From NCBI GenBank assembly GCA_964036665.1, contig OZ038526.1, positions 31,558,001-31,622,000 on the forward strand: DNA of 64,000 bases. The letters are read 5' to 3'. How positions within the stretch are numbered: the first letter of the stretch is position 1; each line of letters opens with the position of its first letter. This DNA is from Gordius sp. MW1. Lineage: Eukaryota; Nematomorpha; Gordioida; Gordea; Gordiidae. A model generated the notes under the pieces. That model had not been told where the DNA came from, ran no database searches, and worked only from the letters and a program-made list of their open reading frames with translations. Positions 7,384 through 58,707 of the stretch are shown in pieces. A program made the translations under genes and the position numbers.

Positions 7384-9400
7384 TTAAAAAAAAGTTTCCC
7401 TTTTGTCAAGGGTATTGACAGCTATACGGCGCCCCAATTCTTTCAGAAGGGCTTGGGTTTTAGGGCCTATTGTTATAAGGGTAGTGGTCACTATAGGGCA
7501 GAAAAGGAGTGAGGAATTAAGTTCTGCGTATTTAGCGGACTTTATTCTTTCAGAATCGACAAGGGGGTCTTTGTTTTGGTTTGAGGGTGCAAAGGCATCC
7601 GGACAAGTGTAGTCCCATGCTAGGCATAGCCCTTTTGCCCCTGGTATGAGGGTCTGTCCATCGGGTCTCTTCTTGCCGCTAAGGCAAAGACCATTAGGCT
7701 CCAATTGGGAGGGAAAGCCAGCCTTATTGAAAGTCTTCTGTAGAAGAGCATTAACAGATGTGTGACCTAAAAATCTGGCCTTATTGAATTTGCAATGTAG
7801 GCCGTGATGACCTTTTGTACCTACAGATGAGCCACATAAGTTGCATTGGTGGGGGGCAACTATATCACAACCTAGGCGGAGCCCTGTTGCGATCCTGAAC
7901 TCCTTGTTTGAGAGTTGAAGGTCATGGGTCCGACTTGGGATGGCCTCCAACCACTCGTGGCCGGACCTTGATGCAAAACTTCTTAAAGCTGGTAACTCCT
8001 CCAACGAAGCGCCCGATATAAGAGTTTTAAGGGCATGGTCGTAGAGAGGAGTGTTCCAACTTTTTTGAGAGTTTATGGTAGGGAATGGAGTGTTAGGGTC
8101 GGACAAAGAGCTCCACATGTCGAGAGCGATTTGGGTAAAGGGATCTGGTTGATCGATTATTTTGTCGATGATTGGTTTGGATGAAAGTCGACTCGAGATG
8201 AAGGCCGACAAAGCTACTAGAGGGGGTGATCTCAGGCCCAAACCACCATATTTTGTGGGGAGACACGCTTGTTTCCATTGGGACCCTGTAAAAGAAAGGT
8301 TTGTGATTTCCTCGACTACACCTTTGAGTTTTCGGTCGAATATAGATAGAGCATTAGGATTTAAAAATGAGGTGGATGACCTGAAGATATGATTTATCTT
8401 GGGTAAAGAATAGCAGTTTTTAATTAAAAAGAAAGCCTGGTGGGCTGGCAAGTAAGAAAGGAGGGGTTTGATTTCTACTAGTTTTTGTATTGTCGCTGTT
8501 AATGATTGTTACAAGGGTGTGAGCCACCTATGGGAGATCCTAAGTGCGTTAGTTCGTTAGGGTGAATATGTTTGAAAGCGTCAAAGTATGGGTCTAGGCT
8601 TAAAGAGTCGGTATTGTTTTTGCAAACCTCGGTCTTGCTATGATTTAGATGGAGACCAATTTTTGAAGCCTCGACTTCTAGATAAGAGAGGGCTTCTTTG
8701 ACGTCTTCGGCATTTCCCTTGATGGTACCATCGTCTAGGTACCACAAGTTGAGTGATAGATTATATTTAGAGGCTAGGTCTTCAGTCAGGGATTTTATAC
8801 CTAGGCAGAATAGTAGGGGGCCTAGCGGGTCTCCTTGTTGAATGCCGTCACTCGATGCAATTATTTTGGAATTAAAGTTGAGCATGGAAGTAGGAGCGTA
8901 GCATGCGTTAAGGAAAATGGAGTACTCGGGAAGAGATTTGTAAGCCTCGGTTAAGAAGTGTGACCTGTAAATCGTGTTAAATGCGTTTTTGAAGTCAATC
9001 TTAGCTAGGATCGAATGGTCGGGATGGGCTAGGGCTATGCGAACAGCGTGAGAGGCGATTTCACAACCACCCTTGGTTCCGAAACCTAGTTGGATAGGAG
9101 CTAATTGATCTGCAATGTCGGATTTTACTCGTGCAATGATAAGTTTGCAGCATATGCGTCTAAAAATTGAACCCATGGCAATTGGACGAAGGCCACCATC
9201 AGGTTTGGTAAGAGATATTAAGGTGGCCCCAAAAAAATAGGGAGAGATCGCGTCAGGTACTAAGCCTTTAATAACCTGGTTAAGGAAGGTTGCTAGGGTG
9301 GATGTGAAGTGGCCAGACCTGTCAATGTGAGGTCTTGTTAATTCTATTAAATGTGAAGCACGGAAGCCGTCTAAACCAGAACCTACTAAGGATTTTAAAA
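7384..9400 (-). mobile_element. LINE relic with RT and C-terminal endonuclease-like domain, copy 1
   Basis: Read from 9400 to 7384. The RT runs from about 9400 to 8500, with PDGGLRPIAMG, QLGFGTKGGCEIASHA, KIDFKNAFNT, GIQQGDPLGPLLFCLGI and the catalytic YLDDGT. A frameshift near 8510 separates it from an open C-terminal frame (8451-7384) carrying CNLCG ... HHGLHC (zinc-binding) and RPDG ... AWDYTC. The latter looks like the PD-(D/E)xK-style endonuclease tail of R2-type LINEs. The 5' end is missing, as is common after target-primed insertion. Clade placement is inference. Confidence 0.85.
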
Positions 9401-10835
9401 AAAAAAATTCACCAATTAATTCAGACTTTGGTCAGGATTTAAAAATTAGAAAATGATTTTTAAAAAAATACAAGAGGTGAAATCTTTAAAAGTATATCAA
9501 AATTTGTTGAATTTAAAAGAAATTTGGGGTAAGGGGACGATTTAGGGAATCTAAGATTAAATCCAAAATATTTAAATGACTATTTTAAAGTTCACTATAA
9601 TAAAAAAAAACCTTTTACCGAATTACCTAAAGTTTGAAAGATTGTTGCCAGATATCTGTTTATTACTAATGATTCTAAACCCACCGGCGGTTAGATTTTT
9701 TGACTCTTAACCTATTTTAATTAAATAATCAACATCATTTTTGGCAGACACGCCCGCCTCGATAACTTAATCCTGGCCGCCTCCCCGGATGGTCTACCCT
9801 ACACTTATTATTTATACAAATTGTTGTATTATTATATTTACTAGTCGTTCCTTTAATACATGTATTGTAATTTTACTAACGCTTTACCTTTAAGTATTTG
9901 TATCGTGTGGAATTGTTTATAGCGAATTAATTTGGCCATCAGTTATCGTTGTTAAATTTAAGTTAGGCCTAACGCTCTAATGCCTTCTTTTATATCTACC
10001 TGAAATATACTTCTATTTATAGTTTTTGCCAATTGCTAATTCATGTACATGTTTGATACATGAGCCTCCTCGAAAAAAATGTAATACTGTTTATATTAAT
10101 ATGAGCAATAGACTATTTGCCAAACTTAGATGGATTCTGAAATAGTAAAATTCTTTGTTATCCCAATTGTCGTAAAAGTTTAATTTTCTTCTACGGCCAT
10201 AATTAAAATTTCGCCTCCATTTTTCTGAAACATATCCCAATTTTTCTCTGTTTGTATATGTGTTATCAAACGAACAATAAAAAAGAACGGTATATGGGAT
10301 ATAAGGCCGACAGAATAGAGAAGGTTGATGAATTCTCGTAGATGGTGGGAAGAGACGTGTTGACCTAAGACTAACAAAATTTAAAGGCATGGTAAGAGGA
10401 CTAGTAAGACGCTTACATAGCGAAAGTTATGAAGACAAAAGCGGGGAATACAATAGTAATTTAGCGTCAAGATATTTTTATCAAAGAGGAAAGTTTTTCA
10501 AGAAATCCGCATTTTATTCATCTAGCTGTGCCTGGCCAAGCGTTGCTTTGGCTTAGTTCTGTATCAGCTTAATAATTAGTACGTATTGATAGGACCTATA
10601 TGAAACAATTTGGGTCATCTTTAGGAGGGTTTATGATTTAAACATATATAATGCTGTGTTAATAATAAATATCATTAACTTAATAATAGAAATGGCTTAT
10701 TAATTCATAATTAAATAGATTTATTATAAGATACATATCAGCTAGTTTCTAATTTCATAGGGTAAAGTGCGATGTTTAGCGATTATATGCATAATTGGGT
10801 AACAAAAGTTTATAAGTTATGAACCACTGGTGTAT

Positions 10836-16796: not shown

Positions 16797-18032
16797 TCAC
16801 AAAAGTTTCCTCAAATTTTGATCAAATAAAATGTATAATATTAAAAAGCACGTGTAATTTAAACTTTCTACTATCAAGACCCAGGAAGGAGCATAATCGT
16901 AAGGAGAACAATATTGCTTACACATTTTATACCGCATCATATACCGTATTTTAAAGACTAGATAGGGGACTATCGTACTCAAGGAAGTTATTATTAGTAA
17001 TAATAATATTAGAGCTTTCTTGAGTGCCACGGATAAATGATTGTTTCGAAATGATTTTCCTTCAAGTTGAAACTTTGTAGAATCATTAAGAATTTTTTTA
17101 TTCATGGTAAGCGTACTATAATTATCAACTACTACATGAGACAATGAACTGATGTTCATCAATGGCGTTGCAAGCTTGTATCGCCTATTCAAAATAAGTA
17201 CAAATACTGCCACGTTAATTAAAATGGCGATTAGGAATAGGGATGCAAATGACATAAATATAATTTCTCTCCATAAGTTAAATAGTATGCTAGACCGTTT
17301 CAAATCATCGTGAAGTGTTACTAAGCAGGTAACAGAAGTTGTCGAGTTTAAATCATCTTTGAGTGCCAAGGGCGAAGTTTTTTGGTAAGGTGCATTCCAA
17401 AATAACTTACTATCAAAATAATGTAATGCTATGATGAATAATCCAAAACACAAGAACATCCAGCTTTTAAAGAAGTGGCACGCAGATTTAAGGTTTGCAT
17501 TCTCGACTATTTTAATACTTGTGGTTGCGGTGGGAGAGACGGAACGCAATCCTCGAGTTAATTGTTTGTAATGACGGTAAAAATAAATTATCTTAAACAC
17601 TAGTGACAACTTAATTAGGGAAGGCTTAAGGACAAAGAAAATTTGAACGGCCAAGAGATGCAAGCGAGCGGTTTTACAGTAATCTTTCGCAAATTGTGAT
17701 TGAATTTGCGTCTTAGTGGATCCATTGAAAAGGGTATTATACCGACCTACGACAATTATAAAAGGTAACAGCGATAGTAATATATTCAAAATACACACGG
17801 CAAACAAGTAAATGAAGCAATCCGCAGGAATAACAAGTCTTTCCCTAAGAGCTCGCATTGTAAAATGTTGCCCATTAACAGTTCTTGTTTTAAAAAAAGG
17901 AATAAACCCACGCGTTTTCCAAAGCTTGTATGCCAACCATGCATTAACAAATGTGCCTGTAGCCAATGATATAGGCAAAATCACTAGATATCCAAAAACG
18001 TCAACATCTTTGATTATAAAGTTCCAAAACAT
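16797..18032 (-). CDS. Orphan seven-transmembrane receptor-like protein, intronless
   Basis: A 411-codon ORF from the ATG at 18032 to TGA at 16797-16799. A GTG-started extension of 8 codons is possible but unlikely. Seven hydrophobic segments are visible: about residues 12-39, 66-95, 122-157, 188-208, 255-285, 335-360 and 380-402. A Cys stands just before TM3 (KDYCKTAR) and another in the TM4-TM5 loop (VTCLVTLHD), the placement of the class A disulfide. TM7 ends LNYTCFLILYILF then DQNLRKLL, which resembles the end of TM7 and helix 8 of rhodopsin-like receptors. DRY is absent; TM3 ends in YFYRHYKQL. The intact long frame inside decayed repeats argues for function or a recent origin. The ligand is unknown and divergent chemoreceptor families are an alternative. 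Confidence 0.65.
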   Translation of the reverse strand: MFWNFIIKDVDVFGYLVILPISLATGTFVNAWLAYKLWKTRGFIPFFKTRTVNGQHFTMRALRERLVIPADCFIYLFAVCILNILLSLLPFIIVVGRYNTLFNGSTKTQIQSQFAKDYCKTARLHLLAVQIFFVLKPSLIKLSLVFKIIYFYRHYKQLTRGLRSVSPTATTSIKIVENANLKSACHFFKSWMFLCFGLFIIALHYFDSKLFWNAPYQKTSPLALKDDLNSTTSVTCLVTLHDDLKRSSILFNLWREIIFMSFASLFLIAILINVAVFVLILNRRYKLATPLMNISSLSHVVVDNYSTLTMNKKILNDSTKFQLEGKSFRNNHLSVALKKALILLLLIITSLSTIVPYLVFKIRYMMRYKMCKQYCSPYDYAPSWVLIVESLNYTCFLILYILFDQNLRKLL

Positions 18033-18345
18033 ATTTGAAAAATAAAGTGACCACACTTAGATGCCTGTTCAAATTTCGCGAGATAAATTAGTTGATAAAA
18101 TTAGCGCTACAACTTATTAATAATTGATATTCTTTTTTTGTTACTTAAAAACAATCTCGAATTTTGACCATGTGCTAACTCAACTATGTTTTTATCAAAG
18201 CATAATGAAATTTTGAGGCTCATCAATAATTTATTGAGAATGCCATTCGTTATATAATAAAGAGCAGGTTATCACGTTGTTAAAGCCTTATGATTTTGGA
18301 TAGGTTTTAAATATAATATGTCGTTACAACAAATTAGTCCATTAA

Positions 18346-21016: not shown

Positions 21017-23930
21017 TTAAATACAAAGATCTATATCATTATCTTCTAAAACGGGCCATGAGTCGGCGAAGGATTTAAAGTTGTATCGTACAACAAGAAT
21101 CCCTAGTTGTTGCCTGAGTAAAAAGAATGCAGAAATTTTAGATTTCGTTGAGCGTTTTCCAATTTCTTTAAAAAACTCCATTGCCTGTTTACCGAAGGAA
21201 CCGAAGCACGAGGCAACGACAGGGATAAAAATATTGGATGCCAAAAGGGCAGAGTACTTGGTAGTTTTACGCCCTTCTACTGTAGCGATAGGGTCGTAAT
21301 TAAAATGGGAAGGGGCAAATAGGTCAATACAAGTAAAATCCCATTTGAGGGATATGCCATTTTGCCAGGGGACTAGAGAAGAGCCGTCAGGGCGCATCCT
21401 ACCCTTGAGAGAGGGATCTGACGGCTCAAGAATTGAGGGGATTTTTGCCTTTTTGAGGGCAGCTTGAATTAATAAATTGGCTTTAGTGTGCCTAACATAT
21501 TTATGTTTGTTTGCTAGGCAGTTTAGAGGGTGCCTAGCATATTCGTCTACAGTGAAAAGACAGTTTCGACAATTGAATTCTCTGCTATAGCTGATCCCCA
21601 ACCTTAAAGCTATGGAATATAATAGCTCAAAGTCTTCAAGCAGCATTCCCAAAAGTTTGCTGGGATAGGCTTCAAGCCACTCGTGACCGGAACCATCAAA
21701 TGCGAGGGACCTAAGGTTGTAATGCTGGCTATCGTCGCTGCTCGATAAAAGGTAATCAACGGAGCGCGATACGAGTCCAGAATCCCAATCCTTTTGTCTC
21801 GTACTTTGAGGTTGAACGGTCTCGGGTGTGACATTCAAATTCCAAAGCTCTAAGGCTTGAGTTAGCAGAGGGTCGGAATCATGTGTTGTGAGATTAAAAA
21901 TTAAGTTTTGGACCGACTTAAAAGAGGAAATAAAAGCAGCTAGCGATATGCTGCCGGGAGGACGAATTCCCAATTCCAGATTTGGTTGGAAGGGATGCCT
22001 GAACCCAATTATTAGTGTTAAATTTTAAATGTAAAATTTTTTCTAATAAAGTTTTTAAAAAGCCTTCGTACGACTTTAAAACTTCTGGGTGTAAAAATGC
22101 ACCAGATGAGCGAAAACAATGATTAATCTTTGAAATGTTAAAATAGTTTTTGATTATGTAAAAAGATTGATGTGCAGGCAAGCATTTTAAAAGTTCCGTT
22201 TTAGATTTTAAAATTTCGAGGTTTTTATGAAGAAAATTTAAAAGAGATTTATCACCGCCAGTGGGTGATCCCAAAAGGGATATGTTTTCTCTATCTAAAA
22301 CTAAAAAAGTTTAAAAAAGGGAAAGTCAATAGTGTTAGGGGCCTGATAGATTTCACATTTTTTCGTGTTTAATTTAAGATTTAGAGTGGGTTCAAAATTG
22401 TTGATAATTTCTATAGCTTTACTAATCGCCTCCGGACGGCCACATAGGGTGGCGTCGTCGAGGTACCAAACATTTAAATCGAGGGTACACTGAGATGATA
22501 TTGCCTCGACTAAATTATGAATGGCCAAACAAAACAAAGGAGGGCCTAATGGATCTCCTTGTTGGATGCCTTCGGACGAATCAATGACGTATTCGCTGAA
22601 ATGAAGCTTGGTTGTAGAACCATAGCTTAATAAAATGTAATTTAAAAATTGTGGAAATTCAGCTAAAAAAGTGTTAATAAGGGTTTCTCCTCGAATACTG
22701 TTAAAAGCATTGGCGAAATCTTTAACAAAGCAGGACTCGGTGGAAATATTTTGAAGTGTGATCCAGCCAGCATGGCTGGCTGCCTCACAGCCGCCTTTAA
22801 TTCCGAAGCCGAGTTGATGAGGGCAGAGCTTAGCGGACAAGGAGGGTTTTATGAGTTTGCAGAGTATCTTAGATATAATACGGCGAAAAAGGCTTCCAAT
22901 AGCAATGGGTCTAACTGAGTTATCCGGTTTTTAAATGGCGATTAGTTTTGCACCGAATAAAATAGGGATGATTTCATGAGGAATTTTTCATTACCGATGA
23001 TATTACAAAAAGAAGTAATAGAATTTAAAAGAGATTCAGTATTTAAATTATTTAAATTGAGTAAATCTTGTAGATATACTGGGCGCCATTTGTCAAGTCC
23101 AGCTGCGTCCAAAGGAAAGGAGTTAAGGGCTTCACGGATGTCTGAAGACTCAAGCACTATTGATGATGGAGATGTGGGGTATTTACTGGCTGAGGATGCT
23201 GGTGGGTGTTTTTGATTAAGCTCCCTATAAGAGTCAGGGCAACAAGGGGCTATTGAGTTGTTATCATAAAAAGCTCTAAGGGCACTTTTTGGGTTAAAAT
23301 TATGAATTTTATTTGAGATGTGCTTGGCAGTTTGGTTAATTGAGAATTCCAGTGGAAAGGGTTTTGTTTTGCTTGTGCATGTAATGGGAACATCAGTATT
23401 AAAACACAGAAGGGATTCCTTGATGAGACTTGATAAATTATGTTCATTAGATTCCCTAACATAAAGGATATGATATAAATTTAAAAAGTTTGTCCCAATT
23501 AGTTAAGTTATAAGGGTTTTTGATAATAGAAGTGAATAAATTTAGCAGAGATTGTTGGATGGAAGGTCTGGCTCCTCTTGGGATTCTAGAGATAGTATTA
23601 GGAAATGAATTTGTTAAAAAAGAATTGCTCCAAGATAAGTCAGGCGGTTGATTAATTAGTGGGGAGCATTGTAAGGGTGGGGGGATGACAGGGCTAGGGA
23701 TTGGCAATAGGGGAGCCTCTTCAAAGTTAAAAGCCAGGGGTGGAATTGGTAAGCAGGTTGGAGGTAATTTGCCAGAAGAAGGGCATCTTGAAGACACAGG
23801 GCCATGAATCAAAAAACAATTGTGTATATCAAGGCATATTCGTCGCTTACAAGTTGGGCATAGGGGTTTAGAGATTAACATATGTGGGATAAAAAAACTT
23901 GATTTATAAGAGGATAAGTTGAACAATTGA
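21017..23930 (-). mobile_element. LINE relic, same family, longer copy 2
   Basis: Read from 23930 to 21017, it extends further 5' than copy 1. The N-terminal part has CPTCKRRICLDIHNC (finger-like) and ARPSIQQSLLNLF. The RT has QLGFGIKGGCEAASHA, GIQQGDPLGPPLFCLAI and YLDDAT, where the usual Gly after DD is Ala. The C-terminal domain has CRNCLFTVDEYARHPLNC, RMRPDGSSLVPW and KWDFTCIDLFAPS. Several frameshifts and stops make it inactive. It separates hAT fragments at 19497-20970 and 24600-24890. Confidence 0.85.
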
Positions 23931-24599
23931 TACTAAAGTTGGGATCATTTTAAATTTTAAGCTGTATGATTTATAAGAATTTTGCAAGTTTAATAATACA
24001 AAAGAGTATCTGGGAAATGTATTATTAATTGTATGATATTGAAAAAAAATGGCTCAAAGAATTCACCAAAGGTCATATTAAAATCTGTAGGGTATAAATT
24101 GCTTACCTTTTATGGAAAGCATCATAAAATGTTTGTAAACATCCTCTGATAGTAGTTAAGAGATATTAAAATATATTTCAAAGTAGAATTTAATAATAAG
24201 CATATTGTGCAAATGTGAGGTATATCTGGAATAACTAGCATTGGTTAATGCATCCTCATGATATATAATTGTTGCTGCTGGTGGTAATTGAATAAATCCT
24301 TTGGAAATAATATGAGTTTTTGAATGAATTAATGCTGCAGTTGAATGGGTTTATAATTTGATTAATTGTAAAACAATACAAAAGGCTGTACAATGTAGAT
24401 AACAATTAAACCTTTTTTTTTATTGTATTTGTTAACCTGAAGTTCATGAGCACAAATTTGAAATTAGCAATACTACAATACACAAGCATATAGGTGGAGA
24501 TTTCATAGTTTCAGATATAGAAGGACGAATTGAAGCTTTTTATTGAAATTTTAGTTAAGAAAATTTGTTTAATTAATCAAGCACTACAACGAAACACAG

Positions 24600-31639: not shown

Positions 31640-31771
31640 TGGCCGGGAAATGTCCGATAATTTTAAAACGAAAAGGTATTTTAGGAATCTGAAAATTTTA
31701 CCCCTGGCCGCCCTGGGAACCTACGGGTAAAGTTTCGCGCGAATCGGGCCGGTAGTTTCAGAATTTAGCCC

Positions 31772-31772
<1 letters not shown>
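31640..31772 (+). repeat. Interspersed retroposon-like 3' end, copy 3
   Basis: Same sequence as parts of 2345-2487 and 15985-16103: starts near GGCCGGGAAATGTCCGAT, continues CTGGCCGCCCTGGG and GGTAAAGTTTCG, and ends TTTAGCCCTT. Here a TACA array follows; at 2487 a T-rich run follows. Ends of this style with tetranucleotide tails are typical of LINE/SINE 3' ends in invertebrates. Confidence 0.6.
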
Positions 31773-31802
<30 letters not shown>

Positions 31803-34160
31803 CATACATACATACATACATACATACATACATACATACATACATACATACATACATACATACATACATACATACATACATACATACATACATACATACA
31901 TACATACATACATACATACATACATACATACATACATACATACATACATACATACATACATACATACATACATACATACATACATACATACATACATACA
32001 TACATACATACATACATACATACATACATACATACATACATACATACATACATACATACATACATACATACATACATACATACATACATACATACATACA
32101 TACATACATACATACATACATACATACATACATACATACATACATACATACATACATACATACATACATACATACATACATACATACATACATACATACA
32201 TACATACATACATACATACATACATACATACATACATACATACATACATACATACATACATACATACATACATACATACATACATACATACATACATACA
32301 TACATACATACATACATACATACATACATACATACATACATACATACATACATACATACATACATACATACATACATACATACATACATACATACATACA
32401 TACATACATACATACATACATACATACATACATACATACATACATACATACATACATACATACATACATACATACATACATACATACATACATACATACA
32501 TACATACATACATACATACATACATACATACATACATACATACATACATACATACATACATACATACATACATACATACATACATACATACATACATACA
32601 TACATACATACATACATACATACATACATACATACATACATACATACATACATACATACATACATACATACATACATACATACATACATACATACATACA
32701 TACATACATACATACATACATACATACATACATACATACATACATACATACATACATACATACATACATACATACATACATACATACATACATACATACA
32801 TACATACATACATACATACATACATACATACATACATACATACATACATACATACATACATACATACATACATACATACATACATACATACATACATACA
32901 TACATACATACATACATACATACATACATACATACATACATACATACATACATACATACATACATACATACATACATACATACATACATACATACATACA
33001 TACATACATACATACATACATACATACATACATACATACATACATACATACATACATACATACATACATACATACATACATACATACATACATACATACA
33101 TACATACATACATACATACATACATACATACATACATACATACATACATACATACATACATACATACATACATACATACATACATACATACATACATACA
33201 TACATACATACATACATACATACATACATACATACATACATACATACATACATACATACATACATACATACATACATACATACATACATACATACATACA
33301 TACATACATACATACATACATACATACATACATACATACATACATACATACATACATACATACATACATACATACATACATACATACATACATACATACA
33401 TACATACATACATACATACATACATACATACATACATACATACATACATACATACATACATACATACATACATACATACATACATACATACATACATACA
33501 TACATACATACATACATACATACATACATACATACATACATACATACATACATACATACATACATACATACATACATACATACATACATACATACATACA
33601 TACATACATACATACATACATACATACATACATACATACATACATACATACATACATACATACATACATACATACATACATACATACATACATACATACA
33701 TACATACATACATACATACATACATACATACATACATACATACATACATACATACATACATACATACATACATACATACATACATACATACATACATACA
33801 TACATACATACATACATACATACATACATACATACATACATACATACATACATACATACATACATACATACATACATACATACATACATACATACATACA
33901 TACATACATACATACATACATACATACATACATACATACATACATACATACATACATACATACATACATACATACATACATACATACATACATACATACA
34001 TACATACATACATACATACATACATACATACATACATACATACATACATACATACATACATACATACATACATACATACATACATACATACATACATACA
34101 TACATACATACATACATACATACATACATACATACATACATACATACATACATACATACA
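31773..34160. repeat. (TACA)597 microsatellite, 2388 bp, uninterrupted
   Basis: Perfect tandem TACA for 597 units with no variant seen. It starts exactly where an interspersed repeat ends (...TTTAGCCCTT at 31772-31773), so it looks like an expanded retroposon 3' tail. Long open frames reading Met-Tyr-Val-Cys on - exist only because the repeat lacks stop codons. Confidence 0.98.
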
Positions 34161-34194
34161 CTTTAATTTATATATATAGATATAGAAAAAAATT

Positions 34195-49900: not shown

Positions 49901-52900
49901 AAAAAAATCGATGCCTAGGAATAAGGGTAGTGATTGTAATTTCTAAATCAAAATGAATAAATATATGGGTTTTAAATAGGAATGTTAGAATCTTTTTTTA
50001 TACCCATTTGCTTAGAAGTTCTATAATCCAATGATTTTTTAACCTGAGAACAAAAGCCTGCCCTTGTCCTGCCAAATCTCTATCGCATGGGTGTTGTTAT
50101 TTCCCTTAATTTTATTTTGTAAATTTTGGCGCATTTCTTTGTCCGTCTAACATTGACGTGCGATCAAGTTTAATTAACGGGGAGGGGAGGGGGTTTGGAA
50201 TAAAAGGGAGCAGTAAAAAAGGCGGAAGATTGAGGTAATTTAAACCGTCGACCAAAATACAACACGCATAAATGGGTGGTCCCCACGGTTAATCGTGTAC
50301 GATCGCCTCAAATCGATTGATTATTATTATCGATTAAGTAGTCCACGTTACATTATATTGATTTCCACTCCCTCCCCACTCTGTCTATAATAAAATAAGT
50401 ATTATAACCTTTGTGGCCCCCGCCCCTGCTCGCTAGAATATTCTAGTCGCGTGCAATGGGGGATGATGGGATGGGGGTGTGTTTTGTGTTTAGATAATCA
50501 ACGGGGGGGGGGTATACTAAAATTAAAGGAAAATGTCACGCTTTAGCGAGTTTACTATAGCATCATCACATCACCTCTGACTGAACCATCTGAACTAGCT
50601 CTAACCTACCGACCCTACCCTACCTATTGCAAAGCGGGAATAGCATCATTTCTATTTATATCTCTATCATCACATTAACTAATAAATACGTACATATATT
50701 AAATGCGACTTACTTAACTGTGCGCATGAGCCTCCACAGCATACGAATGAATGAATAAACAAGTGACGAAGGTGATATTAAGCAGTTAAACCTTATTTCC
50801 CGCTCCGAGATACAATATCGTAACAGTACCACCCCCATCCCAACCTAACCTTGAAATCGGCCCCCGGCGCCTTTCAAATTTTACTTTATACTCGCTATTT
50901 CTCCTATTTATAAAACTCGAATCAAATTATCATCAAGCACCCTTCCTACAATAAAATCCTCCCGTTATATTGTCCGTTTTCAAACATAAATCCCCGGCTC
51001 CAATCTACACGCCCATCAATACAATCATCATGAGGTCTTCTTCTCAATTCGGGAAAAATTTCATCTTTTACCAATCCCTGCAACCGGAAGAAATTAAGAA
51101 GAGGCGAGAAAAGGTTTGCTTTTTACGCGATAAAATTATCCCAGGCTATTGGGTGAACGTATTTATATAATTTCGACACGCCTCCCCGCGATGATCGGAT
51201 GGTGTGCCTGCCAGTTATTCTCTCCTTTCATTCTTTATAAATAGCGCTCTCCTCCCAATTTCCTATTGGCCTCTCCTTATATGTGGTTATTTTGACGTTT
51301 AAAGGTCAGAGAGCACCAAATTAGCTCCCAAACCCTAATATTTAGATTTTGCCCCTCCCCCCCCTCAACCATTTTTTTCTCCTATTTTCAAATATTAACG
51401 GGCGACGACCGTGTTTTAAATCCCAGTTTTTATCGGCCTTTGAATAGATTATCGCTCGATTAATATCTTATTAATGGTTCGTCGAAATTCCACAATTTTT
51501 TTGCACATGTTAACCGGGCTAAAAAGTATCGGTGTGCCCCGTCTTAAAATTGAGAACGGGCAAGGCGTGGCTAGGGGAAGGCAAATAGGGTATAAGCTCC
51601 CTCCCCTCCCCTAGCACCAAGAAACCATTAATGATCGACCCCCTCTTACTCCAATAAAAATTAGGTTAGACTAAAACTCGGCTTTTTCCAAATTTGTACA
51701 AATTTTTACGATTTTGTGCTTGGAGAATTTAGGTATGGGTCGCTATTGCATTTTATGCCACTGGAAAACACTGTTTATATGATCAACTATATTACAATTT
51801 TCAATATTTCTTCATTTATTTGCGCAGTAAAACAATTTTGAACGCGCTAAATTTACATAATTTTTTCATTATTTTGCATACTAAATTGAACACTATATTT
51901 GTTTTTGACGAATTAACAAAAAAGGTGGAAATAACGCTGGCACCCTTGAAGTTGCCTCATTCAACGTACGAAATCATAAGGGATATGATATTGGCTGAGT
52001 TTGTTAAAGGTCTTTCCAAAAAAACTAACCCCGAAGCAACGATTAAAATGTTCCCTTCCTACGTCAGATCCGTACCTGATGGGACTGGTGAGTACTTCGA
52101 ACCCCTTGAGCTTAGATCACATGATAATTTTATTTTTAAATTTACCTTGTAGAAAGCAAAACTAGTTGCCTTTTAAAGTATTTTTTTAATTATAAAATTT
52201 CATTTATTTGAGCTTGAAAATAAAAAAAAACCTGCATTAACAGAACAAGGCGATTTTTTGGCTCTCGATTTGGGTGGAACCAACTTTAGGGTACTTCGCA
52301 TCACGCTGGAAGGTAACAAGGTCAGCATGCAGAACAAGATTTACATGATAGCCAAAAAACTCATGACCGGACCGGGCAAAGACGTAAGTTCGCTTTAAAC
52401 CATCTTCTACTTTTATGTAGCCTTTACATAATGTTCCATGTTATCGGTTGCTTCTGACTTAGAGGAACCAGGATTAAGATTTGCAAAAAGTTCGATATTA
52501 TGATTTAAGAATGGCATAATGATTTTAAATCTAATTTTAGTAAATATTTAAGGGTATTAAAATATGAGGGACCCCACCCCCCTCCATTCAAGCTCTGGTC
52601 TAGCTGCAAACTATTTAAAAACGTTCAAAATTATTATACATCAAAAATTATTTAAGTTAACTCCTCAAAATTTAGTTGTTCGATTACATCGGTTCTTGCC
52701 TCGCCGATTTCGTGAAGGAACAGAGCCTGGCTGGTCAAGCGCTGCCCTTGGGATTTACATTTTCCTTCCCTTGCCGACAAGAAGGCCTAACCCACGCCCG
52801 CTTAACTTGTTGGACTAAAGGGTTTACTTGCCCCGGGGTGGTGGGCGAAGATGTGGTTAAATTGCTGCAAGAGGCCCTTAAAAAGCATCCCGTAATTATT

Positions 52901-55900
52901 TATATTATGTAATGCACTCGATTGCGACTGGTTTATCCAAAATGTTATTATTATTTTAATTGTTTTATTATTATTTTCAAATTAAACTGATTATGGAAAG
53001 CAATTATTCGCCTGTCTATCCCGTTTTTACCAGAATTTAGATTAAGCTTTTTCACTGCTTAGCAGAGCCTTGAAAGATTTTAATTGCCCTCTGCCCCGGA
53101 TTCGAAGGATAAAGTCTAAATGGCCTTCCCCCGGTACCAAATATTTTTTAAAAGAAGTCCCAATTTTCAACGTCTCGTAGCAAATTTGATGTTTTAAATA
53201 ACTTGATTTGATAAGTTTTATGAACATAAAATTTAATTGCGCTTAAGCACACACCCCCCCCCCCCCCCTTCCTTTAAAAAATGTCGCGAATTCTTAATTT
53301 TTGGCCATTTATTACCTAAGGAATGCGGTGGGGTAGCTACCGTAGTTGCCCTCTTAAATGACACGGTAGGTACATTGATGGCGTGCGCTTTTCAAGACAA
53401 ATACACCCTGATTGGTATTATATTGGGTGAGTGAGTTGCTTCATTCGCGCTAGCTCTCAATGACGACACTATACTAATCTTAGCCGCGGGGTCATATTGA
53501 CCCCCTCTCCCCTGTGCCTAACAATTAACCCTAGCCGCTCCCCCAAACTTTCGAGATATACGGATTAGGCAGCACTAGTATTGTAAAAACGGCTGCGTTT
53601 TTTTGGTCTGTTTTTCTTGGTCGACCCCTGGGCTTAGTCAAAATTCGAAAACAAACTAGAGTCGACAATTTGTCCTAGTAAACCCAAAGGTCGGCCAAAC
53701 AAAACCCATCCGTTTTTACACCATAGGCAGCACACATTAACATAACACAATCAACTAAAACCTCAATACCACTTGTTATACGTATACCTTTCTTTCTTTA
53801 ATCACTTAACGCGACGCTTTACTAACATTCGATGGTTCAAACGGTAGGAAGTTAACAAAAACATGCACCCAATAGCGCTACTAAACGATACAACCGGTAC
53901 TCTGATGTCTTGCGCTTTCCTCGATCCCCATACGATGGTCGGAATTATATTAGGTACCCACCCGACCGATCGGGCTTGCTCGCCAACTTTTACAAAACAC
54001 TTATCGTCAATCGCATTAACTAATCCTAATTTTTCTCGCACTTTTCTCGTTGCAATAAGACCGCTTTACCTAGCTAATTTTTCGCACATCCCGATAGCTT
54101 ATTAACTACTTAACTCTAATTTTTTAAAATTGGTTTTATACCTAGAATCTCAATCTAAAAACTTTAGGTTTGAGCAGAATTTAATCATTTTAATCTATGA
54201 TTAAATTTGGACTTTTAGTTTTTGCCCTACCCTTTGTTAACCTCCGTTATAAACCTAGTAATATTACCCTCCGTTGGTCTAGTGTTTTGGATGGTAGAGA
54301 GTCGAACGCTCTCTAAATTTTATATTATCACTTTATAACGTGAAGTTATAACAACCCGACCAACGGAGCATTATAAAAAAGTTTTGTCATACCCTAATGT
54401 CCTCGTATTCGTGCCTTTAAATTTACAGGGACGGGTAGCAATGCCTGTTACATGGAGCGACTGGAAAACGTCGAAATGTGGGATGAAGATCGAGACGAAC
54501 CCAAGCAGGTACATAGTAGATATATAGGCGCGATCGATGTTTTAAATTACATGATGATATACGATGGAACATTTTTTATGTTGCCTCCCAATCCTAAATG
54601 CTTCAGCATTAACTTATTAATAAAGCCTGTGTTTTAATAGAATTTAAACTTTTTTTTAGTTTTTAGTGGTATGTATAAATTCCTAGGTTTTGTTTTGTCA
54701 ACCATTGTTTCACCTAAAACTAACTGCTGACTTAGCAAACCACAGGCCAAAATCCTCTAGACTGTCTTTTAAAAATACGTCTAAGCCTAGAAATTAACAA
54801 ACTAAAAGTTTTTGTTCAGTTGACTAACACCAAAAGTAGACTAAACAAACCCCATGTCTTTTTAAGATACTAGTTTTTATAACATTTACATTTATCACAC
54901 CTCCGCCATAAGCTTTCTTCTTCTTTATGCGTTGCAATCGTATATGCTTCTAACGTAAAATGCAGGTAATAATAAATACGGAATGGGGTGCTTTTGGTAA
55001 CGACGGAGCCCTCAACTTTATTCGAACCAAATATGATTACGACATCGACGAACATTCACTCAACCCCGGAAAACAAATGTAAGTTTTTATCATAGACTAA
55101 TAGACTGCTCATTCCCTTTTAAAAAGTGTTCCACATTTGGCATCCATTTTGAAAAGTGAAAAACATGAATTTTGCCCAATTCATATGGTTTGATGAATTT
55201 TTAAAATCGCTAATTGTTCCATGTTATAAGATCAATGATTATTGTCCAATACAATCCATCGCTATACAAACTCTACTTCACTTATCAAAAGGCGGGCATG
55301 GGCGTAGCCAGCTTTAGGGAGGGGCAATTTGAAATCCATAATTTTAATGAATTTCAACAATTTTTTGGATTTAGAGGGGGGCAGCCGCCTCTCCCTGCCC
55401 CCCCCCTTGGCTACGCCCATGGGCGGTCGTTTTTTGCAACACTTTTGATGCGTGAATATATAAGAGATGAGCAGTCTATAAGTCTATGGTTTTTATACAG
55501 CGCTCTCCAATTATTATTTGTGATATTTTAGCTTTAAAACAGCCACTAATATACTAATGCAATGTTATCAACGTCATAACATTTTTTTGGGCCATTTTAG
55601 TTACGAAAAGATGATATCGGGTTACTACATGGGAGAAATCGTGAGGCTCGCCCTGGCGGATTTGTGCCAAAAAGGATTGCTTTTTGGGGGCAACGGGTCC
55701 GAAGAACTCTTTACCCGCGGACAATTTTTCACCAAATACGTTTCCGAAATCGAAAGGTAAACTAGTATGCCAATCAGTTAGTCAGTCATATGTGTTTAGT
55801 TGGGGTACTGGGTGACCCCACGCCCGATATCTATCTTGTTTCAATCTCATATGGCACAATTTGTATATATGTCCTTTCCATTTTAAAATAAATCAGAGGT

Positions 55901-57892
55901 CAAATTTGTTTAAATTTATTCCGCTAGAACCCGGTCCGATCCGATTTTTTAATTAAATTACCCGCCCGAACCCTTCTAAGTGTCCGCCCTGCCATGTTCG
56001 AATCATTAGAGCTGCCCAGCTCGAAATTCATGATGATCCAATTTTTAGAAATAATTTTGTCATGCCTCACTATTTTTTAATTTAATTCTCGATTTTTTGG
56101 GGTAGGAACTTCGATGAATCAATATAAAAACAGTCAGGGAAAAGTGACAAAATAATAAAACGAAAATAAATAATAAATTTAAAAAATCTCATTGAGCTTG
56201 AATTTCCCGGCCGTGCCGGGCTTCTCTGGTCTGTAATTCTCATTAAATTAACTGAGTAATGCCATTTTTGTGCCCTCTTCTAATTTCTTTTTTGTTCTGT
56301 TATAGCGATACCGTCGATGATTTTCCAAACACGCGACAAGTTCTTGAAGAGATTGGAATAGAATTTGTGTCTCAAGAAGATTGTGCCATAGTACAATACG
56401 CCTGCGTCTTGGCTTCTACCCGAGCAGCTCATTTAGCATCAGCCGGTATTTACTAGAAACGTTGTTTGAAAGTTGCAAAAATACCTGGATTTTTTTAGTC
56501 GTTTTTGGGTTCAACTAAGAAATACAGACCCAAATCCTATGGTCTGTTTTTCAAGTTTCGACTAAGCCTAGAAGGTCGAGTAAACAAAAACTAGGTCTTT
56601 TTACCACATTAGTTTACTTTATAGCTTATACTCTTTCTTAAATGTGCTCTCAAGAGCTCTCGGGTTCAAATCCCGCTTTTGGCACTTTCTTTCAAAAGCC
56701 ATAAAATATATCACATTGTCAACACGGCTGTCAGGCCTGGATAGCCATCTTGTTTGTAAACATTTCTTCTCCCCCTAAATTGCGGATAAATTTTAGAAAA
56801 CTGTTCCAAACGGCAAATAGGCGTTTTGAATAGTTATACTACGAGAAGATAATAATTTTGTGTAAGTAAGTTGACCTTTTTATGCTAACACTAGTATAGA
56901 GGATGCCACGTTCAATTAAAAGTTTATTCAGTCGATGGCTTGCCTAGCCATGTATTTAAATATTATTTCCCAAATTAGTTTGTGCATTCGGCATATATAA
57001 ATCGCGCCTAGAAGCTGTGGTATTGTTTGAGTTTTTGTGATTTCTTCCAACAAGGAAGCTCTGCCCTTTAATATAAAAAATCTCGATGAAGTAACTCTGG
57101 AAAACTTTTTAATTTCAAGGTTTTAACTTTATCAGTGCTATGTTAATCGTTCTTTAAAAATAACTTGGTTTTTAGGTGTTGCCGCCATCTTAGTCAAAAT
57201 GGGCCGACCCAAAGTAACTGTGGCCGTGGATGGTTCTCTATACCGTTATCACCCCAAATTTCACACGCTCATGGTCGACAAAATCGCCAAATTAGTCAAA
57301 AACGTCGACGTAATATCTAGATTTCATTATTATAGCTTAACATTTAAAAAATCTCTATATTATGCAGGATAGCTTAAAATTCATATCTAAATCAATTATT
57401 ATTAAGACTTGTTAGCCCTATTAAGTATAGCAAACGTAATTGCTTTGGCAACATTGAAAAGACTTTTATGAACGGTTGCTTCAAGTCTTTAACTTTACAA
57501 AATAAGCATGTTTAGTGTTTTGTACCTTTTTAACAATCGGTACCTTTGATAGAAGACCCTATGGTATCTATACAATAGTGTCAATTTTAAGGGGATAAAT
57601 AATCAATAATTACCAATAGGGTGATTATTATACACGTGTTTCAATAATTTAATTTTTATTTTTGCTGCATACACAGTTCAAGATCCTGCTTTCGGAAGAC
57701 GGATCGGGTAAGGGGGCCGCCTTAGTAGCCGCTGTAGCGACGAGGCTTAGAAAGGAAAAAGCGGATGCTAAGAGAGCTTCAGAAGGCTTCGCTCTTTCGG
57801 GCAATGGATCTTTATCTACGACACCTAGCGATTTAACAACAAACCCAGCAGCATCTAGCCATCACAATAAAAGCTCCAACGCGTCATCCTAA
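46968..57892 (+). CDS. HK: Hexokinase, complete spliced gene (11 coding exons)
   Basis: ATP-dependent phosphorylation of glucose and other hexoses, the first step of glycolysis. Proposed coding exons: 46968-47075, 51925-52087, 52244-52383, 52676-52891, 53321-53426 (or 53848-53953), 54429-54508, 54966-55078, 55601-55756, 56306-56445, 57176-57309, 57677-57892. All junctions are GT-AG and keep frame, giving 523 codons, the usual size of a single-domain hexokinase (about 50 kDa plus tail). Visible motifs: LDLGGTNFR near residues 98-106 (phosphate binding), LGFTFSFP and WTKGF near 162-187 (hexokinase signature), NDTVGT with the catalytic Asp near 223, GTGSNACY near 244, NTEWGAFG with the sugar-binding Glu near 277, and [13 protein letters not shown] near 457 (adenosine site). 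The last 40 or so residues are a Ser/Asn-rich tail. The first exon and the 4.8-kb first intron are inference; exons 2-11 are secure from protein motifs. Confidence 0.93.
49308..49470. mobile_element. hAT-type MITE in hexokinase intron 1
   Basis: Begins CATGGGGGTTTATCCAGC and ends CTGGCTACGCTTATG. The 8-bp flanks GAGGGAGA and GAGGGACA differ at one base. It lies between the two candidate hexokinase first exons. Partial relatives lie at 47502-47655, 49570-49713 and 45648-45770. Confidence 0.8.
50909..50915 (+). promoter_or_regulatory. Candidate hexokinase proximal promoter TATA box
   Basis: TATAAAA lies about 115 nt upstream of the ATG of the candidate alternative first exon, a spacing that fits a short 5' UTR. 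A further TATAAATA lies near 51237, after that exon's donor. Confidence 0.3.
51030..51113 (+). CDS. HK: Candidate alternative first coding exon of hexokinase
   Basis: ATG at 51030 opens 28 codons ending EEIKKRREK just before GTTTGC, in phase 0. This is the same phase as exon 1 (46968-47075), so it would splice to the exon starting at 51925 and give ...[15 protein letters not shown], a plausible hexokinase N-terminus. A TATAAAA box lies about 115 nt upstream. Local GC is higher than in the flanks. Whether this is the main start, an isoform or unused cannot be decided from sequence. Confidence 0.5.
53321..53426 (+). CDS. HK: Hexokinase exon 5A (catalytic-Asp exon, first copy)
   Basis: A 106-nt exon read from phase 0 to phase 1, after acceptor ...ACCTAAG and before donor GTGAGT (strong consensus). 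It encodes 35 residues containing [15 protein letters not shown] and ending GIILG, which joins to TGSNACY of the next exon. The Asp in NDT is the catalytic base in known hexokinases. It matches the family consensus better than exon 5B, including the Val after NDT. Confidence 0.92.
53576..53723. mobile_element. MITE between the two hexokinase exon 5 copies
   Basis: Inverted ends contain TGTAAAAACGG and CCGTTTTTACA. TAGGCAGCAC is duplicated exactly at 53566-53575 and 53724-53733 (10 bp). It belongs with 54666-54870 and a degenerate copy near 56480-56620, all in hexokinase introns. Duplication length suggests a Mutator-like source. Confidence 0.65.
53848..53953 (+). CDS. HK: Hexokinase exon 5B (alternative copy of the catalytic exon)
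   Basis: A second copy of exon 5, also 106 nt, also phase 0 to phase 1. It follows a perfect TACTAAC branch-site-like sequence (53820-53826) and acceptor GGTAG. It encodes [20 protein letters not shown] and continues [16 protein letters not shown]. It keeps the catalytic NDT and the GIILG end but differs at many other positions. Most third codon positions differ from exon 5A even where the amino acid is the same, so it is an old copy kept under protein-level selection. The donor reads GTACCC, which is weak. Since 106 is not a multiple of 3, using both copies or neither would break the frame. No transcript evidence is available here. Confidence 0.75.
54270..54369. repeat. Hairpin-rich tRNA-like element in hexokinase intron 5
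   Basis: An 11-bp terminal stem, CTCCGTTGGTC with GACCAACGGAG, encloses two further perfect stems, AGAGAG/CTCTCT and TTATAAC/GTTATAA, giving a cloverleaf-like outline of about 100 nt. An A-box-like TGGTCTAGTG is present. The T loop and U33 expected of a tRNA are missing, so it is not a functional tRNA by my reading. A short MITE or SINE remnant is likelier. Confidence 0.4.
54666..54870. mobile_element. MITE in hexokinase intron 6, 9-bp target duplication
   Basis: TAGTTTTTA is duplicated at 54657-54665 and 54871-54879. The ends GTGGTATGTATAAA and TTTTTAAGATAC are inverted and resemble those at 53576-53723; the inner GGTTTTGTTT / AAACAAACCCC pair is shared. Confidence 0.65.
55297..55421. mobile_element. 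hAT-type MITE in hexokinase intron 7
   Basis: Ends CATGGGCGTAGCCAGC and TTGGCTACGCCCATG, 125 bp. A shared GGCGG flanks it with a 2-bp shift, so the duplication is imperfect. Confidence 0.75.
55894..56228. mobile_element. CCCG-rich MITE in hexokinase intron 8
   Basis: Begins CAGAGGTCAAATTTG and ends GGGCTTCTCTG. The interior has TACCCGCCCGAACCC and TTTCCCGGCCGTGCCGGG. No clear target duplication. Confidence 0.45.
56480..56622. mobile_element. Degenerate MITE in hexokinase intron 9
   Basis: Right end GTCTTTTTACCAC and inner TAAACAAAAACTAGG match the family at 53576 and 54666; the left end is eroded. Confidence 0.45.
56641..56690 (+). repeat. tRNA 3'-end-like fragment
   Basis: CTCGGGTTCAAATCCCG is a good T arm with B box, followed by CTTTTGGCA, but there is no matching 5' acceptor strand upstream. 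Probably a tRNA- or SINE-derived piece in the hexokinase intron. Confidence 0.35.
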
Positions 57893-58707
57893 TTGCCTCA
57901 CTCGTGAGAATCGCTCCCCTTATGCTTTTAAGTCAGTCCCCTTACCAACTCGAGCTGCTACATAACCAACCCATCATTTTAAAATGTCCTCGAAATACTC
58001 TATGGAGCTTTACACACTCCGCCACACAATACTTAATGGAGCTACGAACCACCCCTCACACTTACCTGGCAAAATACTCTGTCGTCCGTTTGTGCTAAAC
58101 CCTCGGCTTTTTAAGTTTAACGTTATGGTAAGACGTCAAGCATTTTTACCGACCTGAAATTTCACTCACCTGTCTCCCCTACCCCTTACTTTTTAACATT
58201 GTGATATAACGTCCCTAAATTTCTTACCCCTCCCTTTTAAACCCCTATTTTTTATGTGATAGGATTCTTAGGACAGACCCGGTTTGGTGATGATAATCCT
58301 ACCGGCTTATCATTCGTAACACCCTCCCCCACAAAAATGCAATACTCTTAAATTCACTTCTGTCCCCTATTCAATTCTACCCCCGAAGCTTAAATTAATG
58401 CTATATCACTACACTATATCATTTTGATCTATAAATTTCATGGGTCATCTCTCTCACCCCGTCTCTTTACCTCCACGTAATTTATATGGCGCCGCTGCCA
58501 AATGTTTCCACGAACCCACGCATATACAATTCATAACCAGGTTGGTAAATTACATGTTTCGTTACTGCCCTATGAAACATTCGCCGTCAATTATTAATTA
58601 TTTTCATAATATTTGATTTTATCGTTGCGTTTTACCATTCTTAATATGTAACATACACGCGTGCTTACACTTCGTAACATACGTTACAATATGATCTGCC
58701 GGTATCT

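Follow-up and report, generated by a model that had tools for sequence, protein, structure and literature searches.

Whether a single animal gene can make two hexokinases by exchanging the exon around its catalytic residue is the question raised by a locus on the forward strand of the hairworm Gordius sp. MW1. The window, i.e. the whole stretch of 64,000 nucleotides analysed, corresponds to C8:31558001-31622000 of a 211.8-Mb genome in 12 contigs and contains, at 51030-57892, a complete hexokinase gene with 12 coding exons, including two versions of the fifth exon, here called 5A and 5B. Exon junctions were set by eye from the reading frames and then checked for one open frame, and exons 1-4 joined to either 5A or 5B and exons 6-11 gave a single open frame of 515 amino acids plus the stop. 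Exon 1 at 51030-51113 (84 nt), placed on the basis of its open frame and GT donor, runs from a putative start ATG and is followed by exon 2 at 51925-52087 (163 nt), exon 3 at 52244-52383 (140 nt), and exon 4 at 52676-52891 (216 nt), which carries WTKGF. Exon 5A at 53321-53426 and exon 5B at 53848-53953 are both 106 nt long, begin in phase 0 and end in phase 1, and have the donors gtgagt and gtaccc, respectively; the intron between them, at 53427-53847, is 421 nt long. Downstream lie exon 6 at 54429-54508 (80 nt), exon 7 at 54966-55078 (113 nt; carrying NTEWGAFG), exon 8 at 55601-55756 (156 nt), exon 9 at 56306-56445 (140 nt), exon 10 at 57176-57309 (134 nt), and exon 11 at 57677-57892 (216 nt, including the stop codon). 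All splice sites of the gene are GT-AG, and 5A and 5B are both bounded by AG and GT. The coordinates, lengths, phases, and peptides of 5A and 5B were as an initial sequence-only reading of this DNA had described them. No third copy of the exon was seen within 52892-54428, and tblastn of both isoforms against the window (E up to 10) found no other duplicated exon of the gene, the extra matches having E values of 2.7 or more and looking like chance.

Of their 106 bases, 5A and 5B have 57 in common, and 20 of the 35 residues they encode are identical. Conservation is uneven along the exon, with a single shared residue in the first eight codons, which are hardly conserved, and 19 in the last 27. 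The claim of the sequence-only reading that almost every synonymous position had changed proved too strong, as the codons differ at 13 of the 20 shared residues and are the same at seven, one of which is a methionine with no alternative codon. The catalytic core, ALLNDT.GTLM.CAF, is nearly identical in the two exons, which diverge in the first eight residues, in V or T after NDT, in A or S preceding the cysteine, and in QDKYTLI versus LDPHTMV. Codon 14, in the NDT of both exons, falls opposite residues 209 and 657 when aligned to hexokinase 1, the catalytic aspartates of that enzyme, in agreement with the initial view that the swapped segment holds this residue. Other hexokinase motifs of the isoform, presumably those for sugar and ATP, were aligned to HK1 and HK2 and are kept. 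With the 5B peptide as query, 5A was retrieved across the whole 211.8-Mb genome with an E value of 1.4e-6, and each single-exon peptide matched hexokinases in the PDB (best E values of 3.4e-11 for 5A and 2.1e-10 for 5B), ruling out a chance resemblance. A recent duplication or an assembly artefact was also ruled out, because 49 of the 106 bases differ and the 300-nt flanks share words of at most 10 nt; the introns flanking 5A and 5B retain no mutual similarity.

Both hexokinase domains are present in either isoform, far above the family cut-offs. The scores were 232.6 bits for the 5A isoform and 231.7 bits for the 5B isoform against PF00349 (cut-off 24.3), and 274.4 and 274.2 bits, respectively, against PF03727 (cut-off 24), while the best PDB match of the full isoforms scored 861.4 bits with 5A and 861.7 bits with 5B, with 48 matching sequences each. 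When PF00349 was run against the genome, the exons alone, as short pieces, scored 18.8 (5A) and 18.1 (5B) bits, below the cut-off. The pairwise maximum likelihood estimate of omega between 5A and 5B, obtained with a codon model in which kappa was fixed at 2, was 0.153 over 35 codons and 0.057 over codons 9-35, values to be read with the small number of codons, the saturation of synonymous sites, and the choice of the border between codons 8 and 9 after the alignment had been seen in mind. Fitted separately, the first eight codons reached the limits of the parameter range and are uninformative. An omega of 0.5, the minimum predicted had selection been absent from one of two branches of equal length, was rejected with 2dlnL of 5.87 over 35 codons and 14.56 over codons 9-35. 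In a neutral simulation that matched the number of base differences, placed every change on one copy, and allowed no indels, none of 20,000 copies kept at least 20 of 35 residues (the mean being 9.2), and 5,182 of the 20,000 were without a stop. The omega test and the neutral simulation indicate that 5B has spent most of its history as a coding exon, and a long-dead copy can be excluded. Together with the equal family scores, they bear out the proposal in the sequence-only reading that the duplication is old and that both copies have been under protein-level selection.

Comparison of 26 core residues pointed to the origin of the pair. 5A and 5B share 18 of these residues with each other, and each shares 13 with hexokinase 1 in either half; 14 (5A) and 11 (5B) are shared with the N half of hexokinase 2, 14 (5A) and 15 (5B) with its C half, and 11 by each exon with the single exon 5 of a paralogue on contig C3. 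The exon 5 of the C3 paralogue has the same phases as 5A and 5B and a length of 100 nt, so that 5A and 5B are each two codons longer; the matching exon in human glucokinase is presumably exon 6, also of 100 nt and running from phase 0 to phase 1. The closest likeness being mutual, and both exons having 106 nt against 100 nt in the paralogue, 5A and 5B appear to go back to a single exon of the present gene. An ancient exon probably gained two codons and was then duplicated inside the gene, after its split from the C3 gene. The C3 locus was the only other hexokinase locus found when the genome was searched with the protein and PF00349, in a seeded search that highly diverged loci could escape, and a second gene with the same exon pair was rejected because this locus shows one exon 5. 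The C3 hexokinase (C3:20434600-20442600) is diverged, with an extra intron inside exon 4, an apparent insertion in exon 8, and NDS in place of NDT, the aspartate being retained.

The length of the exons bears on how they could be used. When both 5A and 5B are included, the frame closes at a stop codon that ends at nt 8 of 5B, upstream of six exon junctions; when both are skipped, it closes at a stop that ends at nt 4 of exon 7, upstream of four junctions. The frame is thus confirmed to break with both exons or with neither. These early stops would make 5A and 5B in effect mutually exclusive, as predicted from the reading frame; the use of either exon in transcripts is likewise a prediction. 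No signal enforcing exclusivity was seen in the 421-nt intron, the GT-AG sites throughout, the ordinary fold, or a search for docking sites. An intron of this length exceeds that allowing steric exclusion, and enforcing signals such as competing RNA pairing, a very short intron, or mixed intron types are not universal among mutually exclusive exons. Folding of the whole 5A-5B intron revealed no special structure (z of -0.91; 13 of 100 shuffles as stable), and no significant shared docking or selector site was found in a small test, in which shuffled sets did as well in three of 30 and in 18 of 30 cases. The intron does contain a strong hairpin, which was rejected as a structure for exclusivity because it belongs to a dispersed repeat. 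This repeat, at 53575-53730, is palindromic and MITE-like, with 57 match rows in the genome, and occurs at at least 40 places including itself, 40 of the 1553 candidates in the genome having been scored. Sequence resembling it by eye is also found near 54700-54880 and 56480-56620. Another hairpin, at 54262-54375 in the intron after 5B, is unique in the genome, and its ends are tRNA-like by eye. A tRNA in this intron or elsewhere in the window was rejected, as ARAGORN calls none in the window, and Rfam gave three matches within 50500-58500 at E up to 1, all far below the family cut-offs.

Considering these results, we think it likely that 5A and 5B, which derive from an old tandem duplication of exon 5 and were both long kept by selection as coding exons, are mutually exclusive and that two hexokinases are made from the gene. 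According to this model, exon 4 would be spliced to one member of the pair, which would in turn be joined to exon 6, yielding two hexokinases of 515 amino acids that would differ solely within the 35 residues surrounding the catalytic aspartate. Transcripts with both exons or neither, in which the stop lies upstream of several junctions, would probably be removed by nonsense-mediated decay. The choice of exon would supposedly be made by regulators acting on weak splice sites, with the decay of double and empty transcripts as a backstop. Splice sites were scored with a small matrix of 18 donors and 18 acceptors from the two hexokinase genes, the C3 junctions having been placed by eye, each site being left out of its own matrix and 5B never being in training. 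The 5B donor ranked ninth from the bottom among the 18 donors, and the 5B acceptor was the lowest of 18 (0.91), with those of exon 2, exon 3, and 5A nearly as low (1.01, 1.16, and 1.37, respectively).

A 5B acceptor that is the weakest among the 18 compared would also suit a regulatory 'poison' exon, in which case the enzyme would come from transcripts with 5A, and the addition of 5B to 5A would trigger decay and lower hexokinase expression; the position of the stop after double inclusion, with six junctions beyond it, fits such a role. Yet protein conservation is not required of a poison exon, whereas the last 27 residues of 5B share 19 with 5A, an omega of 0.5 was rejected, and the 5B isoform equals the 5A isoform against PF00349; we thus consider this role very improbable. 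The weak acceptor, the donor gtaccc without the usual G at +5, and the difference from 5A at seven of the first eight residues could also mark 5B, or with lower probability 5A, as a copy that was once used and has recently gone out of use, its decay beginning. However, 5B has 106 nt without a stop, an indel, or a lost splice site and retains the core residues of the family, and other donors in the same two genes are equally weak or weaker, and we consider recent disuse very unlikely.

Alternatively, both exons may be used and be functionally equivalent, so that the choice between them would be neutral and noise-like. The family scores of the isoforms, less than 1 bit apart, and the location of most changes outside the NDT.GTLM core are consistent with this idea, but one of two equivalent copies would be expected to be lost over so long a time as the saturated synonymous sites imply, and equivalence seems rather unlikely to us. 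Under the model of two distinct hexokinases, the swapped segment would be where their properties diverge. In glucokinase, the corresponding stretch also lines the pocket for allosteric activators, and the changes between 5A and 5B could accordingly shift domain closure or affinity with the chemistry unharmed. The differences in the first eight residues and between QDKYTLI and LDPHTMV are more likely to tune affinity, domain closure, or regulation than to abolish activity, judging from the retained core, and our guess is that the predicted isoforms may differ in kinetics or sugar preference.

Several other features were observed in the window and the genome. On the minus strand, long frames at 7384-9431 and 21017-23932 resemble, by eye, interrupted reverse transcriptases, and a frame of 419 amino acids at 16797-18056 with many hydrophobic stretches is perhaps, by eye, a multi-span membrane protein. 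A short tandem repeat of about 2.4 kb at 31760-34165 lacks stops in several frames of either strand (YIHT and VCMY repeats). Among the six contig starts examined, those of the chromosome-size contigs C1, C2, C3, and C8 are TTAGGG arrays, and those of C11 (76 kb) and C12 are not. Chitin_bind_4 had no match in the genome, a result that is little informative because the control genomes were also without a match. C12 is the mitochondrial genome (14,798 bases; genes named by eye from reading frames), and its cox1 has one AGG codon at a position where lysine is usual. C12 contains 41 perfect inverted repeats with arms of at least 14 bases, overlapping pairs counted apart, the longest being 108 bases, whereas none of 20 shuffles had more than one, and most of them are positioned in nad1, atp6, nad5, nad2, and nad6. 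Mikhailov et al. (2019) described coding palindromes in the mitochondrial DNA of four species of Nematomorpha, these genes being among those affected, and a gastrotrich as the most conspicuous case outside Nematomorpha, with repeats of up to 60 bp in some genes (PMC6649704). The mitochondrial coding palindromes thus point to Nematomorpha, as a strong but not exclusive mark. An insect origin was rejected on the palindromes and the TTAGGG contig starts.

The exon pair has the sequence features of mutually exclusive tandem-duplicated exons, i.e. adjacent homologues, equal length and phase, intact splice sites, a break of the frame, and selection, the last estimated over few codons. This general class includes 236 human tandem duplicated exon substitution events that have been analysed, and neither 'hexokinase' nor 'HK1' occurs in the main text of that survey (PMC9741552). 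In ketohexokinase (KHK), splicing picks one of two adjacent 135-bp exons that arose by local duplication, producing KHK-A or KHK-C, and the Km for fructose is 7 mM in one isoform versus 0.8 mM in the other (PMC2651755); the swapped region adjoins the ATP site, and the catalytic arginine is the same in both isoforms (PMC9741552). The two cases are alike in that a sugar kinase has two adjacent exons of equal length, one of which is, or in our model would be, chosen. However, KHK belongs to the ribokinase family and is no relative of the hexokinase fold, its exons are divisible by three and keep the frame on double inclusion whereas 106 nt shifts it, and both its isoforms are proven and active whereas the hexokinase pair is known here from sequence. 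In coq-2 of nematodes, annelids, and molluscs, the mutually exclusive exons 6a and 6e, of 134 nt each, remodel the enzyme core and switch the quinone (PMC7434440), and Nematomorpha and Nematoda are sister phyla (PMC11603191). Equal-length internal exons that are not a multiple of three, in a metabolic enzyme, are common to coq-2 and the hexokinase gene, but COQ-2 is a prenyltransferase, and its switch, which follows the entry of the parasite into anaerobic sites, was shown by RNA-seq and exon deletion, whereas the hexokinase pair has been read from genomic DNA. The present genome has a UbiA gene, perhaps coq-2, at C3:10170500-10176500, in which, unlike in nematode coq-2, no duplicated exon was found in a non-exhaustive search of plus-strand frames of at least 30 amino acids at E up to 0.05. 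The pyruvate kinase PKM is a glycolytic enzyme that likewise swaps homologous exons, a residue of its fructose-1,6-bisphosphate site differing between the isoforms (PMC9741552), though it is another enzyme and its swapped segment is allosteric where that of hexokinase is catalytic. No description of a hexokinase exon pair was found in open-licence papers, among the matches listed and judged by title, and no open-licence paper on a nematomorph hexokinase was found; among open-licence papers on hexokinase and exon duplication, ketohexokinase was the relevant case. The arrangement is thus of a known kind, and no earlier report of it in a hexokinase was found in the open-licence literature.

Hexokinase is the control point at which sugar enters metabolism, and the usual view is that animals diversify it through separate genes. 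If the model of mutually exclusive exons is true, one gene swapping its catalytic exon would be a compact route to two enzymes, and the exon pair would offer a natural experiment for learning which positions around the active site govern affinity and regulation. Hairworms are parasitoids that develop inside arthropods and become free-living adults (PMC6649704). The biology of the animal and the coq-2 precedent are the two bases for a tentative reading, unlikely as it stands, in which one isoform would serve the endoparasitic phase in the arthropod host and the other the free-living adult. It is similarly doubtful, though conceivable, that such a life-stage switch would change sugar affinity or regulation through the swap of the catalytic exon. 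In a parasitoid of this kind, the exon pair would represent a candidate metabolic switch open to direct testing.
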